From Thermoanaerobacterales bacterium (GTDB taxonomy: Bacteria; Bacillota; Thermosediminibacteria; Thermosediminibacterales; Tepidanaerobacteraceae), in the NCBI GenBank assembly GCA_012840135.1, contig DUMA01000032.1, positions 62,001 to 126,000 on the forward strand: DNA of 64,000 nucleotides, in the 5' to 3' direction. The number at the start of each line of letters is the position of its first letter. Position 1 is the first letter of the stretch. Positions 6,226 to 43,764 of the stretch are shown one piece after another. The notes under the pieces were generated by a model. The model was not told the origin of the DNA. It did no database searches and saw only the letters and a program-made list of their open reading frames with translations. Made by a program: the position numbers and the translations under genes.

Positions 6226-6521
6226 AAAAAAACAAACCCTTCACCTCTGTTAAAGGGGCGAAGGGTCTCGCGTTACCACCCTGATTCATTCATACCTTGC
6301 GATATGAACCTCAGCAGGTACGGGGCTTTTGGCCCGATACCCGGCCGTTCTAACGGTGGCCAATTCCCACATGGGACCCGGCCAGGACTACTTTCTCTTC
6401 ACCCTGGCAGCTCCGAGATGATTTTCACGAGAATCTTCCGGCATCGGTTCTCACCTGCCCCGACTCTCTTTGGCCGGACAGTTTCTGCTACTCTTCTCTT
6501 CATAGCTTTTTATGATTATTG
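6226..6521 (-). promoter_or_regulatory. T-box riboswitch for ilvB-ilvE, specifier probably ATC (Ile)
   Basis: The minus strand reads as a full T-box leader: a stem I region with AGAGAG and GGTGAGAACC elements, the antiterminator signature AGGGTGGTAACGCGAGACCC (around 6265-6284), and a terminator (CCCTTCGCCCC paired with GAGGTGAAGGG, then TTTGTTTTTTT) at about 6226-6266. In the specifier loop, GTGAAAATCATCTCGGAG suggests ATC (isoleucine) as the codon; CTC in the same stretch is the alternative. Uncharged tRNA would stabilise the antiterminator and allow ilvB and ilvE expression. Confidence 0.9.
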
Positions 6522-40621: not shown

Positions 40622-40646
40622 AAAAAACTCCGGATAGGAGCTTTTT
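40622..40646 (-). terminator. Terminator of the mgtE pair
   Basis: Minus strand AAAAAGCTCC-TATCC-GGAGTTTTTTC, beginning at the stop codon of the downstream mgtE copy. Confidence 0.7.
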
Positions 40647-41992
40647 CATGCCTTTAAAATCCATGTGGCGGTGCTGAAATATATGAAAAGGCCCATTATA
40701 TCCAGGGCTGTAGTGACAAAGGGACCGGCAGCCACTGCAGGATCGCGCCCCAGCCGGTGCCATAAAAAAGGTACAAGCGTACCCAGGATGGTCGCCAGTG
40801 TAAGGTTGAAAGCCATAGCTATCCCCACCACAAAACCAAGAACGACTTCTCCTTGCCATATATATGCTATCAGGGCAATTATGGCACCGTTTATAGCTCC
40901 GAGGATGATGCCCACCATCGCTTCCCGCAGCACATTTTTCCAGAGGGAAGCAGGATTAATTTCGCCTGTGGCAAGGCCCCGGACCACAATGGCCGCAGAC
41001 TGGGTCCCAACATTGCCACCCATATCCATGAGCACCGGTATGAAAAAAGACAGTGCCACCAGAGCCTTGATGGTATAGGAAAAACTGTTTATAACGCCAC
41101 CGGAAATGATTTCTCCCGCTACCGCCACCAAGATCCACGGAAGCCTCCTTTTAGCCCTCATCCACGGAGAACTCTTCCATGTATCAAGTTTTTCATCGGA
41201 ACCAGCCAGCTTGAGCATATCCTCAGTAGCTTCTTCTTCCACCACATCCATTACATCATCTACGGTGACGATGCCCAGCAGAACATCATTGTCATCCACC
41301 ACCGGCAGTGCCAGAAAACCGTATTTTTTTATGAGTTTTGCCACATCCTCCTGGTCCATGGAAGCCTGCACTTTTTTAACTTCTGTGGACATAAACTCCC
41401 CTATGGGCTTTTGAGCAGGAGCCAGTATCAAATCCCTTAAAGAAACCACCCCTACCAGTCTGTTCATAGAATCCACGGCATACACATAGTATATGGTTTC
41501 CGCATCCGGGGCAAGTTCGGAAAGCCTATTCAGCGCTTGCTGGGATTGCATATCTACCGAAAATGCTATATATTCTGTGGTCATCAGGCCCCCGGCAGTA
41601 TTTTTGTCATAGGAAAGAAGACCCTTTACATCACTTTGCTGTCTTGTTTCAATCAAAGACAAAATAATATTCTTTTTTTCTTCGGATAATTCACCCAGAA
41701 AATCCGCCAGATCGTCCGATGACATCTCATTTAACAACTGAAAGGCGTACCTGGGGCTGATATTCGTCAAAATAAAGAACTTTTTTTCAACATCAAGTTC
41801 GGTAAGAACCTCCAGTGCCGCATCAAAATCTATAACTTTAAAAAATATAATGCTTTCACGGTCTGTCAGTTCTTCAAAAACTTCGGCAAGGTCCACGGGA
41901 TGCTGTTCCTGTATTATGGTTCTGAGGCTTTTTATTGCTTTTTTTGATATGAATTCCTTTATCTTTTTTACATCCAAAGTCCCCTGTCGCAT
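40646..41992 (-). CDS. mgtE: Magnesium transporter MgtE, downstream copy
   Basis: A 448-residue Mg2+ channel/transporter. Cytosolic N-domain (1-125), CBS pair (about 130-250, with GIVTVDDVMDVVEEEATEDM), a connecting helix, and a C-terminal five-helix pore domain with the selectivity motif DMGGNVGTQS. The N and CBS domains bind Mg2+ and close the pore when Mg2+ is high. A GTG three codons upstream overlaps the ribosome site; ATG 41992 is eight bases after AGGAGG. It follows the other mgtE by a dozen bases and shares its M-box leader. Confidence 0.93.
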   Translation of the reverse strand: MRQGTLDVKKIKEFISKKAIKSLRTIIQEQHPVDLAEVFEELTDRESIIFFKVIDFDAALEVLTELDVEKKFFILTNISPRYAFQLLNEMSSDDLADFLGELSEEKKNIILSLIETRQQSDVKGLLSYDKNTAGGLMTTEYIAFSVDMQSQQALNRLSELAPDAETIYYVYAVDSMNRLVGVVSLRDLILAPAQKPIGEFMSTEVKKVQASMDQEDVAKLIKKYGFLALPVVDDNDVLLGIVTVDDVMDVVEEEATEDMLKLAGSDEKLDTWKSSPWMRAKRRLPWILVAVAGEIISGGVINSFSYTIKALVALSFFIPVLMDMGGNVGTQSAAIVVRGLATGEINPASLWKNVLREAMVGIILGAINGAIIALIAYIWQGEVVLGFVVGIAMAFNLTLATILGTLVPFLWHRLGRDPAVAAGPFVTTALDIMGLFIYFSTATWILKA

Positions 41993-42004
41993 GTTTTCCA
42001 CCTC

Positions 42005-43384
42005 CTAATGGCCCGGCCAAAAGCTTGACCCAACGGACAATTGTGGAAGAAAGGCCATGGAACAGGTAAAGTATATAATAAGGGTGCACACATCCACCAC
42101 TGTGGTAATAAAAGGTCCTGAAGCCACCGCAGGGTCTATTTTCAAAAAATTGAACAACACTGGTATCAATATACCTATAAAAGCGGAAAACATCAAGGCA
42201 ATGCCCATGGAAATACCTACCGACACGCCGAGATGGATGTTTTTCTGCCATACAAAAGCCACCGCAGCAAGCACCAGACCGCAAACTATCCCCACATTGA
42301 GCCCTGCCAGGGTTTCCTCCTTGATAAATACGGTAAGATTTTTTCTGTTCAATTCTCCGGTGGCAATACCCCGGACGGCCAGAGCCAGAGATTGAGTCCC
42401 GACGTTGCCTCCGGTGGCCATTAGCACCGGTATGAAGAAGGCTACTGCTACAACGGACTGCAATATGCTTGAATACCCATTTATAACCATACCTGAGAGT
42501 AGGTCTCCAAAAAGGCAAACCACCAGCCAGAAAATTCTTTTTTTAGAAGCGCCCCAGATGCTGGAAGTAAGTACCACATCTTCTTCAGGAGAAATACCCG
42601 CCATTTTATGAATATCTTCCGTATCTTCCTCTTCTATGACATCCAGTGCGTCATCCACCGTAACAATACCCAGCAAGCGATTCTGGCCATCCACCACCGG
42701 AACGGCCAGCAGCGAATATTTTGATATGATTTTTGCCACTTCCTCCTGGTCAAGGCCCACATCAACAGAAACCACTTTTTTATGCATCAACTCCCGGATT
42801 TTTTTATGCCTCGGGGCACTTATAAGCTCCCTGAGGGAAAGAACTCCCATGAGATGCTTTGCTTCATCCACCACGTACAAATAATAAATGGTCTCCGCAT
42901 CCTGCCCGAACTGCCTGATAACATCTATGGCATCGCTGACGGAAATGTCCGGAAACAGATAGACAAAATCGGTGGTCATAAGGCCGCCGGCAGTATCCTC
43001 GGCCATCTTCAGCAGGTTTTTTAATTCATCATAGTAGGAACTGGGTAGCCTTGAAAGCAGCTTTTCCACCTGCTGGTTGGGCATTTCCTGAAATAAGTCG
43101 ATTATTTCATCCACCGACATGTTTTCCAGGATTTTAACTATTTCAGCTTCTGTCATGTCTTCCATAAACGGCAGCCTTTCGGATGGTTCCAGTTCTTCCA
43201 AAACCTCAGCCGCTTTTTCGGTATCCATCAGTCGTAAAAAAACCTTTTTATTCACATTTTTAATCTCTCCAAGCATTTCGGCTATATCCGCCGGATGAAG
43301 CTTGGCCAGTATGGTTTTTATCTCTTCATTTTTTTTATGAACCAAGAGATGTTTTAATAGAAGAATATCCTTTTTTGGCAGCAT
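42005..43384 (-). CDS. mgtE: Magnesium transporter MgtE, M-box-proximal copy
   Basis: A 459-residue MgtE with the same plan: N-domain (1-130), CBS pair (about 140-260; GIVTVDDALDVIEEEDTED), and a transmembrane domain with MATGGNVGTQSLALAVRG. It is clearly diverged from the downstream copy, so this is an older tandem duplication that may give a heterodimer, since MgtE is dimeric. ATG is preceded by GGGAGGGG, whose first bases follow directly on the stop of a short leader frame. Expression should depend on the upstream Mg2+ riboswitch. Confidence 0.95.
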   Translation of the reverse strand: MLPKKDILLLKHLLVHKKNEEIKTILAKLHPADIAEMLGEIKNVNKKVFLRLMDTEKAAEVLEELEPSERLPFMEDMTEAEIVKILENMSVDEIIDLFQEMPNQQVEKLLSRLPSSYYDELKNLLKMAEDTAGGLMTTDFVYLFPDISVSDAIDVIRQFGQDAETIYYLYVVDEAKHLMGVLSLRELISAPRHKKIRELMHKKVVSVDVGLDQEEVAKIISKYSLLAVPVVDGQNRLLGIVTVDDALDVIEEEDTEDIHKMAGISPEEDVVLTSSIWGASKKRIFWLVVCLFGDLLSGMVINGYSSILQSVVAVAFFIPVLMATGGNVGTQSLALAVRGIATGELNRKNLTVFIKEETLAGLNVGIVCGLVLAAVAFVWQKNIHLGVSVGISMGIALMFSAFIGILIPVLFNFLKIDPAVASGPFITTVVDVCTLIIYFTCSMAFLPQLSVGSSFWPGH

Positions 43385-43397
43385 TTTTTCCCCTCCC

Positions 43398-43487
43398 TTA
43401 CTGGAAGGTTCTCTTACCCGAGGCGGTAAGATAAACCTCCGTTTTTATTTTATTTTTTCGGTATCTACTACCTGGATCAGGGTCCAT
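43398..43487 (-). CDS. Putative MgtL-like leader peptide before mgtE (29 codons, starts MDPDP)
   Basis: Between the M-box terminator and mgtE, an ATG (43487) with AGGGGG seven bases upstream opens a 29-codon frame: MDPDPGSRYRKNKIK then TEVYLTASGKRTFQ and TAA (43398). The stop touches the mgtE ribosome site (TAAGGGAGGGG). The start resembles the Salmonella MgtL leader, which begins MEPDP; such alternating acidic/proline starts are known to destabilise ribosomes at low Mg2+. The frame spans a hairpin just before mgtE. Translation and role are inferred; chance similarity is possible for five residues, but place and function coincide. Confidence 0.5.
   Translation of the reverse strand: MDPDPGSRYRKNKIKTEVYLTASGKRTFQ
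43401..43439 (-). promoter_or_regulatory. Stem-loop just upstream of the mgtE ribosome site
   Basis: Minus strand GGAGGTT-TA-TCTTACC-GCCTCG-GGTAAGA-GA-ACCTTCC: two 6-7-bp helices separated by a small symmetrical bulge. It lies wholly inside the leader frame and ends four bases before the mgtE Shine-Dalgarno, so ribosome position on the leader would decide whether it forms. Confidence 0.6.
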
Positions 43488-43509
43488 CTTATCGCCCCCT
43501 TTTGATTAA

Positions 43510-43545
43510 AATTAAAAAACCCTTCCTGAAAGGAAAGGGAATAAA
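43510..43545 (-). terminator. Expression-platform terminator of the M-box
   Basis: Minus strand CCCTTTCCTTTCAGGAAGGG followed by TTTTTTAATTTT. It follows the M-box aptamer and should form when Mg2+ is bound. Confidence 0.8.
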
Positions 43546-43549
43546 CTTT

Positions 43550-43705
43550 CCCCTCGTCAACGGTTTTAGCACTGAGCGACTTTGGAAAGCTTGTTTCCAG
43601 CCACATTAGATTTGACCTTAATCCGGCCAAATCTGTTGACCCATTGGTGTCTCTCGACATTTCCGGGCAGTGGCCTGTATTCGCACAGGAGCCTCACCTA
43701 ACAGG
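43550..43705 (-). promoter_or_regulatory. M-box (ykoK-type) Mg2+ riboswitch
   Basis: The minus strand holds the conserved M-box core in order: GTTAGGTGAGGCTCCT, CAGGCCACTGCCC, GAAATGTCGAGAGACACCAA, TGGGTCAACAG, TAATGTGGCTGGAA, GCTCAGTGCTAAAACC and GACGAG. These are near-identical to known M-box aptamers upstream of mgtE in Firmicutes. Mg2+ binding favours the downstream terminator. A 71-codon frame that crosses the aptamer is not a gene. Confidence 0.95.
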
Positions 43706-43736
43706 AAGAAACGAGCTTTTTTCTTTTGTTAATTCT

Positions 43737-43764
43737 ATTTTAATACCATCAAAGAATATGTCAA
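43737..43764 (-). promoter_or_regulatory. Promoter of the M-box-mgtE transcript
   Basis: Minus-strand TTGACA (43764-43759), 16-base spacer, TAAAAT (43742-43737), about 30 bases upstream of the aptamer. Confidence 0.75.

Follow-up and report, generated by a model that had tools for sequence, protein, structure and literature searches.

A candidate mgtQ-like leader-peptide attenuator beneath the M-box riboswitch of mgtE in a Thermoanaerobacterales bacterium

In the 64,000 nucleotides of Thermoanaerobacterales DNA analysed here (the whole stretch, hereafter the window), the Mg2+ transporter gene mgtE is probably controlled by an mgtQ-like leader-peptide translational attenuator, which lies beneath a transcription-terminating M-box and would turn mgtE on at low Mg2+. 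The separate parts of this reading differ in strength: judged by sequence and comparison, the leader ORF is real, conserved and functional-looking, and the same grounds give its conserved start, the alternative pairings, the covariation of one of them (1:2) and the predicted release of the mgtE Shine-Dalgarno sequence (SD); an mgtQ-like attenuator is very likely the mechanism class; and Mg2+ is, by analogy, the likely signal read by the leader. Textbooks treat M-box riboswitches as Mg2+ switches with a single input; in this case the cell probably reads the Mg2+ level twice on one message. With more reserve, we lean towards a wider view, in which the Firmicutes hold a phylum-wide class of Mg2+-reading leaders (M-D-x-[D/G]-P). 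Such leaders would serve every major family of Mg2+ transporters, whether placed beneath an M-box or alone, and would act through at least two routes, release of the SD and a second intrinsic terminator; where an M-box is present, Mg2+ would then be read by the RNA during transcription and afterwards by the ribosome during translation.

All elements of the locus lie on the minus strand, in the 5' to 3' order promoter-like site, M-box, terminator, leader SD, leader ORF, mgtE SD, mgtE and a second mgtE. The promoter-like site of the leader transcript (TTGACA-16-TAAAAT, 43737-43764) matches the consensus at 11 of 12 positions, a match expected about 0.7 times by chance in the region. The M-box (ykoK leader) Mg2+ aptamer RF00380 at 43542-43712 is the sole match to this family in the genome, and its covariance model score of 143.8 bits (E 1.5e-32) stands well above the gathering score of 44. 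It is followed by an intrinsic terminator (43514-43538; stem 43538-43520, T run to 43514, fold -9.8 kcal/mol), an expression platform placed ahead of a gene with MgtE domains, so that aptamer and terminator together make a standard member of the family; the Rfam family, however, covers the aptamer alone, whereas here a putative leader-peptide attenuator follows the terminator. Elsewhere in the window, a T-box leader was found at 6251-6512 of the minus strand (109.7 bits).

The leader ORF (43398-43487) runs from an ATG through 29 amino acids, MDPDPGSRYRKNKIKTEVYLTASGKRTFQ, to a TAA stop, and its first five codons (43473-43487) give Met-Asp-Pro-Asp-Pro, an acidic/proline start whose conservation emerges from the relatives and from the census described below. 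The sequence upstream of the ATG reads AAAAGGGGGC, the leader SD being GGGGGC (43494-43499), which is kept in relatives. The stop codon (43400-43398) directly abuts the mgtE SD GGGAGGGG (43397-43390) and lies 13 nt from the mgtE ATG at 43384. The preliminary description of this DNA was accurate on each of these points: the exact coordinates of a 29-codon frame with a ribosome site between the M-box terminator and mgtE, its Met-Asp-Pro-Asp-Pro start as seen in the translated frame, and the contact of its stop with the mgtE SD. The mgtE gene itself (42005-43384) encodes 459 amino acids with the Pfam domains MgtE_N, CBS (twice) and MgtE, and a second, tandem mgtE of 451 amino acids (40646-42001) begins 3 nt downstream, probably on the same transcript. 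The tandem pair (40646-43384) is retained in several relatives.

Four segments of the leader RNA can be assigned to two alternative sets of pairings. Segment 1 (43478-43498) comprises the leader SD, the start codon and codons 2-3, and its pairing with segment 2 (43420-43441, in the 3' half of the leader ORF) is supported by both folding and covariation. Segment 2 pairs either with segment 1 (OFF) or, through 43440-43425, with segment 3 (ON; 43403-43418, of which 43418-43404 pairs with segment 2). The 3' end of segment 3 (43408-43403) is an anti-SD to segment 4, the mgtE SD at 43390-43397, of which 43396-43391 is hidden in the unmasked fold. For the window leader, the fold of lowest energy combines 1:2 and 3:4 (-40.3 kcal/mol, z -4.2 against shuffles), while with segment 1 masked a 2:3 hairpin is predicted (-24.4 kcal/mol) and the mgtE SD leaves its anti-SD pairing. 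When a ribosome was modelled along the ORF, accessibility of the mgtE SD rose from 0.01 to about 0.4 at codons 0-2 and was 0.03 from codon 4 on.

These pairings suggest the following course of events. At high Mg2+, M-box terminators end most transcripts, and here this would happen ahead of the leader; in transcripts that pass the terminator, the leader would set whether mgtE is translated. With the leader start free of ribosomes, 1:2 and 3:4 would pair and the mgtE SD would be hidden, while a ribosome held at the MDPDP codons, or repeatedly starting and aborting on them, would mask segment 1, allow 2:3 to form and free the mgtE SD. When Mg2+ is low, ribosomes should be destabilised by the acidic/proline start and mgtE turned on; at adequate Mg2+ the ribosome would traverse the ORF and clear the start region, and 1:2 and 3:4 would re-form. 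Both the translation of the leader ORF and the direction of regulation are inferred, and Mg2+-dependent drop-off in these bacteria is assumed from E. coli and Salmonella. The two-layer sensor proposed in the preliminary description fits the order of M-box terminator, leader and mgtE, its second layer depending on that Mg2+ control of drop-off, an extrapolation.

The nearest mechanistic relative is the mgtQ leader of Salmonella (Asp2, Pro4, Glu5), for which it has been shown experimentally that 2:3 replaces 3:4 and frees the mgtB SD, and in which Asp2 and Glu5 destabilise the ribosome (PMC8092293). The window leader shares with it a short ORF with an acid at codon 2 and a nearby acid and proline, ahead of a Mg2+ transporter gene, as well as, by prediction (with covariation for 1:2), stems 1:2 and 3:4 alternating with 2:3, the transporter SD being hidden in 3:4 and freed by an abort near the start. 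The two also differ, since mgtQ is an 8-codon ORF situated between two genes in an enterobacterial operon, with mgtB as its target, whereas the window leader has 29 codons, lies in the 5' leader of a Firmicute mgtE behind an M-box, and includes its own SD and start codon in segment 1. Moreover, such leaders are too short for sequence homology, and the likeness should be read as one of working, not of membership. In E. coli MgtL, low-Mg2+ drop-off at EPDP keeps mgtA transcription on (PMC11282234), and the MDPDP start does match the [D/E]PDP N-terminus that MgtL places ahead of a Mg2+ transporter gene, the likeness behind the initial label "MgtL-like"; MgtL, however, acts on mgtA by Rho-dependent transcription termination, with neither an M-box nor sequestration of the transporter SD, whereas the modelled anatomy of the window points to SD sequestration, as in mgtQ. 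The case suggests that Firmicutes, too, evolved or retained the nascent-chain Mg2+ sensing known from MgtL and mgtQ of enterobacteria.

Two further systems are related in part. The mycobacterial Mbox-uORF (rv1805A) is likewise a short conserved frame that separates an M-box from the genes downstream, but that uORF is itself regulated by the M-box through its SD, with Rho, and its peptide has been described as specific to mycobacteria, no acidic/proline sensing being proposed (PMC12810186). The literature searched, whose coverage excludes most subscription papers and preprints, held no report joining an M-box to a destabilising leader peptide, which within that coverage agrees with the initial statement that no such combination was known. 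In translational attenuators of the ermC type, a leader ribosome masks segment 1, so that 2:3 forms and the SD of the gene is freed; there the ribosome is stalled by an antibiotic, in contrast to the Mg2+-linked destabilisation proposed here.

The locus is no isolated case, as was seen in a census of 150 M-box loci (96 non-redundant) taken from the relatives and from 398 genomes of the phylum. When ORFs between M-box and gene were selected by SD strength alone, a strong-SD leader ORF was present in 49 of the 96 non-redundant loci; 37 of these 49 (76%) had Asp or Glu at codon 2, and 26 (53%) combined the codon-2 acid with a proline at codons 3-5, as opposed to 8-16% and about 1%, respectively, in the controls (dinucleotide shuffles, ORFs of the same leaders lacking an SD, and main-gene N-termini). 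The consensus is M-D-x-[D/G]-P. Leaders with acidic starts precede mgtE, corA, nramp-related and P-type ATPase genes, whether an M-box is present or not, and span about 34 family-level groups by hand count, the nramp-type label being given for likeness to the NrmT genes that PMC4072509 links to M-boxes and not from a domain search. If about half of the M-boxes of the phylum feed a second, ribosome-based switch, published M-box reporter work may have missed a layer; furthermore, dozens of natural variants (MDPDP, MDAGP, MDSGP, MDDPD, MEDPYP) could define what triggers ribosome drop-off at low Mg2+.

The census also bears on what these leaders sense. After Asp2, the most regular residue is the proline at codon 5 (30 of 52 non-redundant leaders), encoded by CCT in 25 of the 30, as against 28% CCT in main genes; CCT triplets over codons 3-7 occur 35 times in frame (offsets 6-18) and once out of frame (offsets 7-17), and codon 2 favours GAC, opposite to the genomic preference. 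These biases at codons 5 and 2 indicate a nucleotide-level constraint overlaid on the amino-acid constraint, and part of the codon-5 conservation may be at the level of RNA or tRNA. It could be argued from the regular, strongly CCT-biased proline, from the glycine that replaces Asp at codon 4 in many leaders (MDAGP, MDSGP) and often stands for the second acid, and from the proline-responsive leader mgtP described in the Salmonella mgtCBRU operon (PMC8092293), that the same attenuator answers another signal, its Asp/Gly-Pro start reporting charged tRNA-Pro, EF-P/ABC-F activity or the general state of translation. We regard this as unlikely, given that all the leaders ahead of genes of clear function stand on Mg2+ transporters, of unrelated families, that no feature is stronger than the acid at codon 2 (76%), and that many leaders contain one proline only.

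The RNA of the other loci was modelled in the same way. Masking of the leader start was predicted to release the gene SD at or above the 90th percentile of shuffles in 22 of 50 non-redundant loci, and in 19 of the 29 whose leader stop lies 5-60 nt from the gene, a group defined after the data were seen; in G001 and G052 it failed to free the gene SD in the model. The 1:2 pairing was stronger than in shuffles (p<=0.05) at 31 of 51 loci, compared with 3 of 52 in the control, which used the start of the main gene. Among 18 leaders of two families, 1:2 showed 6 double-change cells (compensatory changes from U-A to C-G and from G-C to A-U), a value as high being reached in 0 of 500 shuffles, a test that related sequences can inflate; its cells were paired in 87.9% of cases, against 37-49% in slid controls, which preserve relatedness, a comparison that favours structure derived from one sequence. 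For the 3:4 helix, an 11-sequence alignment held no covariation and is uninformative, as is to be expected where one side is an SD and therefore fixed.

The same data allow simple translational coupling to be weighed, in which reading through to the leader stop would open the anti-SD hairpin and feed mgtE, the N-terminus merely tuning initiation on the leader. Such coupling would suit the leader stop of the window, which touches the mgtE SD 13 nt from the ATG, and some relatives in which the SD is also predicted to open when the ribosome has reached the later part of the ORF. It is nevertheless quite improbable: among mgtE relatives the stop is not conserved, its distance to the gene ranging between -8 and +31 nt, coupling has no need of a conserved, covarying pairing of segment 1 that conceals the leader start, and the importer would be off at low Mg2+, contrary to the logic of the M-box.

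The close relatives were compared both at the peptide start and in the RNA beyond it. A DNA search with the post-M-box region, together with a search with the M-box family, covered 101 relatives and recovered the leader from the genus itself and from the greater part of the family; it is conserved in relatives of the class as well. The frame was retained in 10 of 12 same-family relatives, its codons following GAC CC[TGA] G[AG][TC] CC[TA]; in the remaining two (G004, G009), the M-box precedes a different gene and the leader is absent. Starts such as MDPDPGSKYKK, MDPDPSRYVLK, MDPDPSRCFIK, MDPDPSRHFLK, MDPDPSQYLIK, MDPDPSHSPKN and MDPGPSSRYLL keep MDPDP or MDPGP through synonymous changes, N-terminal conservation being limited to five or six residues, after which the peptide drifts or shifts frame. 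The check set out in the preliminary description, a conserved short frame with an acidic/proline start and synonymously biased change after the terminator, thus has a positive outcome among close relatives and also at far greater distance. No variation occurs at the A of the Asp2 codon among the 18 leaders from both families, half of which leave it unpaired, and codons 4-5, mostly outside the 1:2 pairing, are still kept as GR(C/T) CC(T/A). In G001, segment 2 is retained as RNA (AGAGGTTTATCTTACCGCC) yet read in another frame, as KRFILPP instead of EVYLTA (G002 likewise reads it in another frame), which argues for selection on the peptide at its beginning and, past that point, on the RNA. That the peptide is a functional small protein with a trans effect on MgtE or the membrane, as the conserved N-terminus might otherwise suggest, is very improbable in view of this drift beyond the first five or six residues, the frame shifts in G001 and G002, and the occurrence of the same start ahead of unrelated transporter families. 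Short as 29 codons are, a chance ORF in the spacer can practically be dismissed, being refuted by the relatives, the excess of such starts among SD-selected ORFs, the in-frame CCT and the 1:2 pairing with its covariation. A scan of the bacterium's own genome with a strict motif gave no second copy, the window's own SD GGGGGC also failing that pattern, and in Peptostreptococcaceae (L040, L045-L048) mgtE was found to have no such leader in a contig scan with mgtE (11 loci).

The leader is also found apart from the M-box. Seven members of a sister family (G013, G015-G020) have no M-box and carry mgtE leaders starting MDADPSN or MDAGPSN with the same switch, which shows leader and switch to be a separable module; an Rfam search of the M-box-free leaders detected no M-box. 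Upstream of mgtE in this family (L172, L174, L180-L185), a terminator-like hairpin with a T run lies between promoter and leader, and in G015 the upstream sequence GATGCGAG could pair with the 5' arm of the hairpin, CTTCGCAT; possibly a shorter sensor took the place of the M-box. Other M-box-free mgtE leaders begin MDGNP, MDPDS, MDGDS, MDPLP and MDSHS. A scan of the 398 genomes for an SD followed by M-D-x-[D/G]-P, blind to gene identity, gave 14 matches, 9 of them leaders of Mg2+ transporters (7 M-box leaders and 2, of corA and mgtE, with no detected M-box); the other 5 look like chance, a reversed control pattern giving about 9 chance matches.

Finally, where more than 60 nt separate the leader stop from the gene, or the two overlap, SD release is, for the group, not predicted. 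At six loci with such a distant leader (L125, L136, L138, L140, L153, L157), an intrinsic terminator lies 56-92 nt past the leader stop, an arrangement that resembles the trp-type attenuator; L125, L136, L138, L140 and L157 form a group with two terminators in series, the second apparently controlled by the leader. At five others (L062, L063, L074, L084, L052), leaders with acidic starts extend tens of nt past the start of the transporter gene, in a frame other than its own, their starts including MEVDSVP, MDVPWHP, MEYDDWDP and MESDDD, and this overlap with the gene start is a possible third output.
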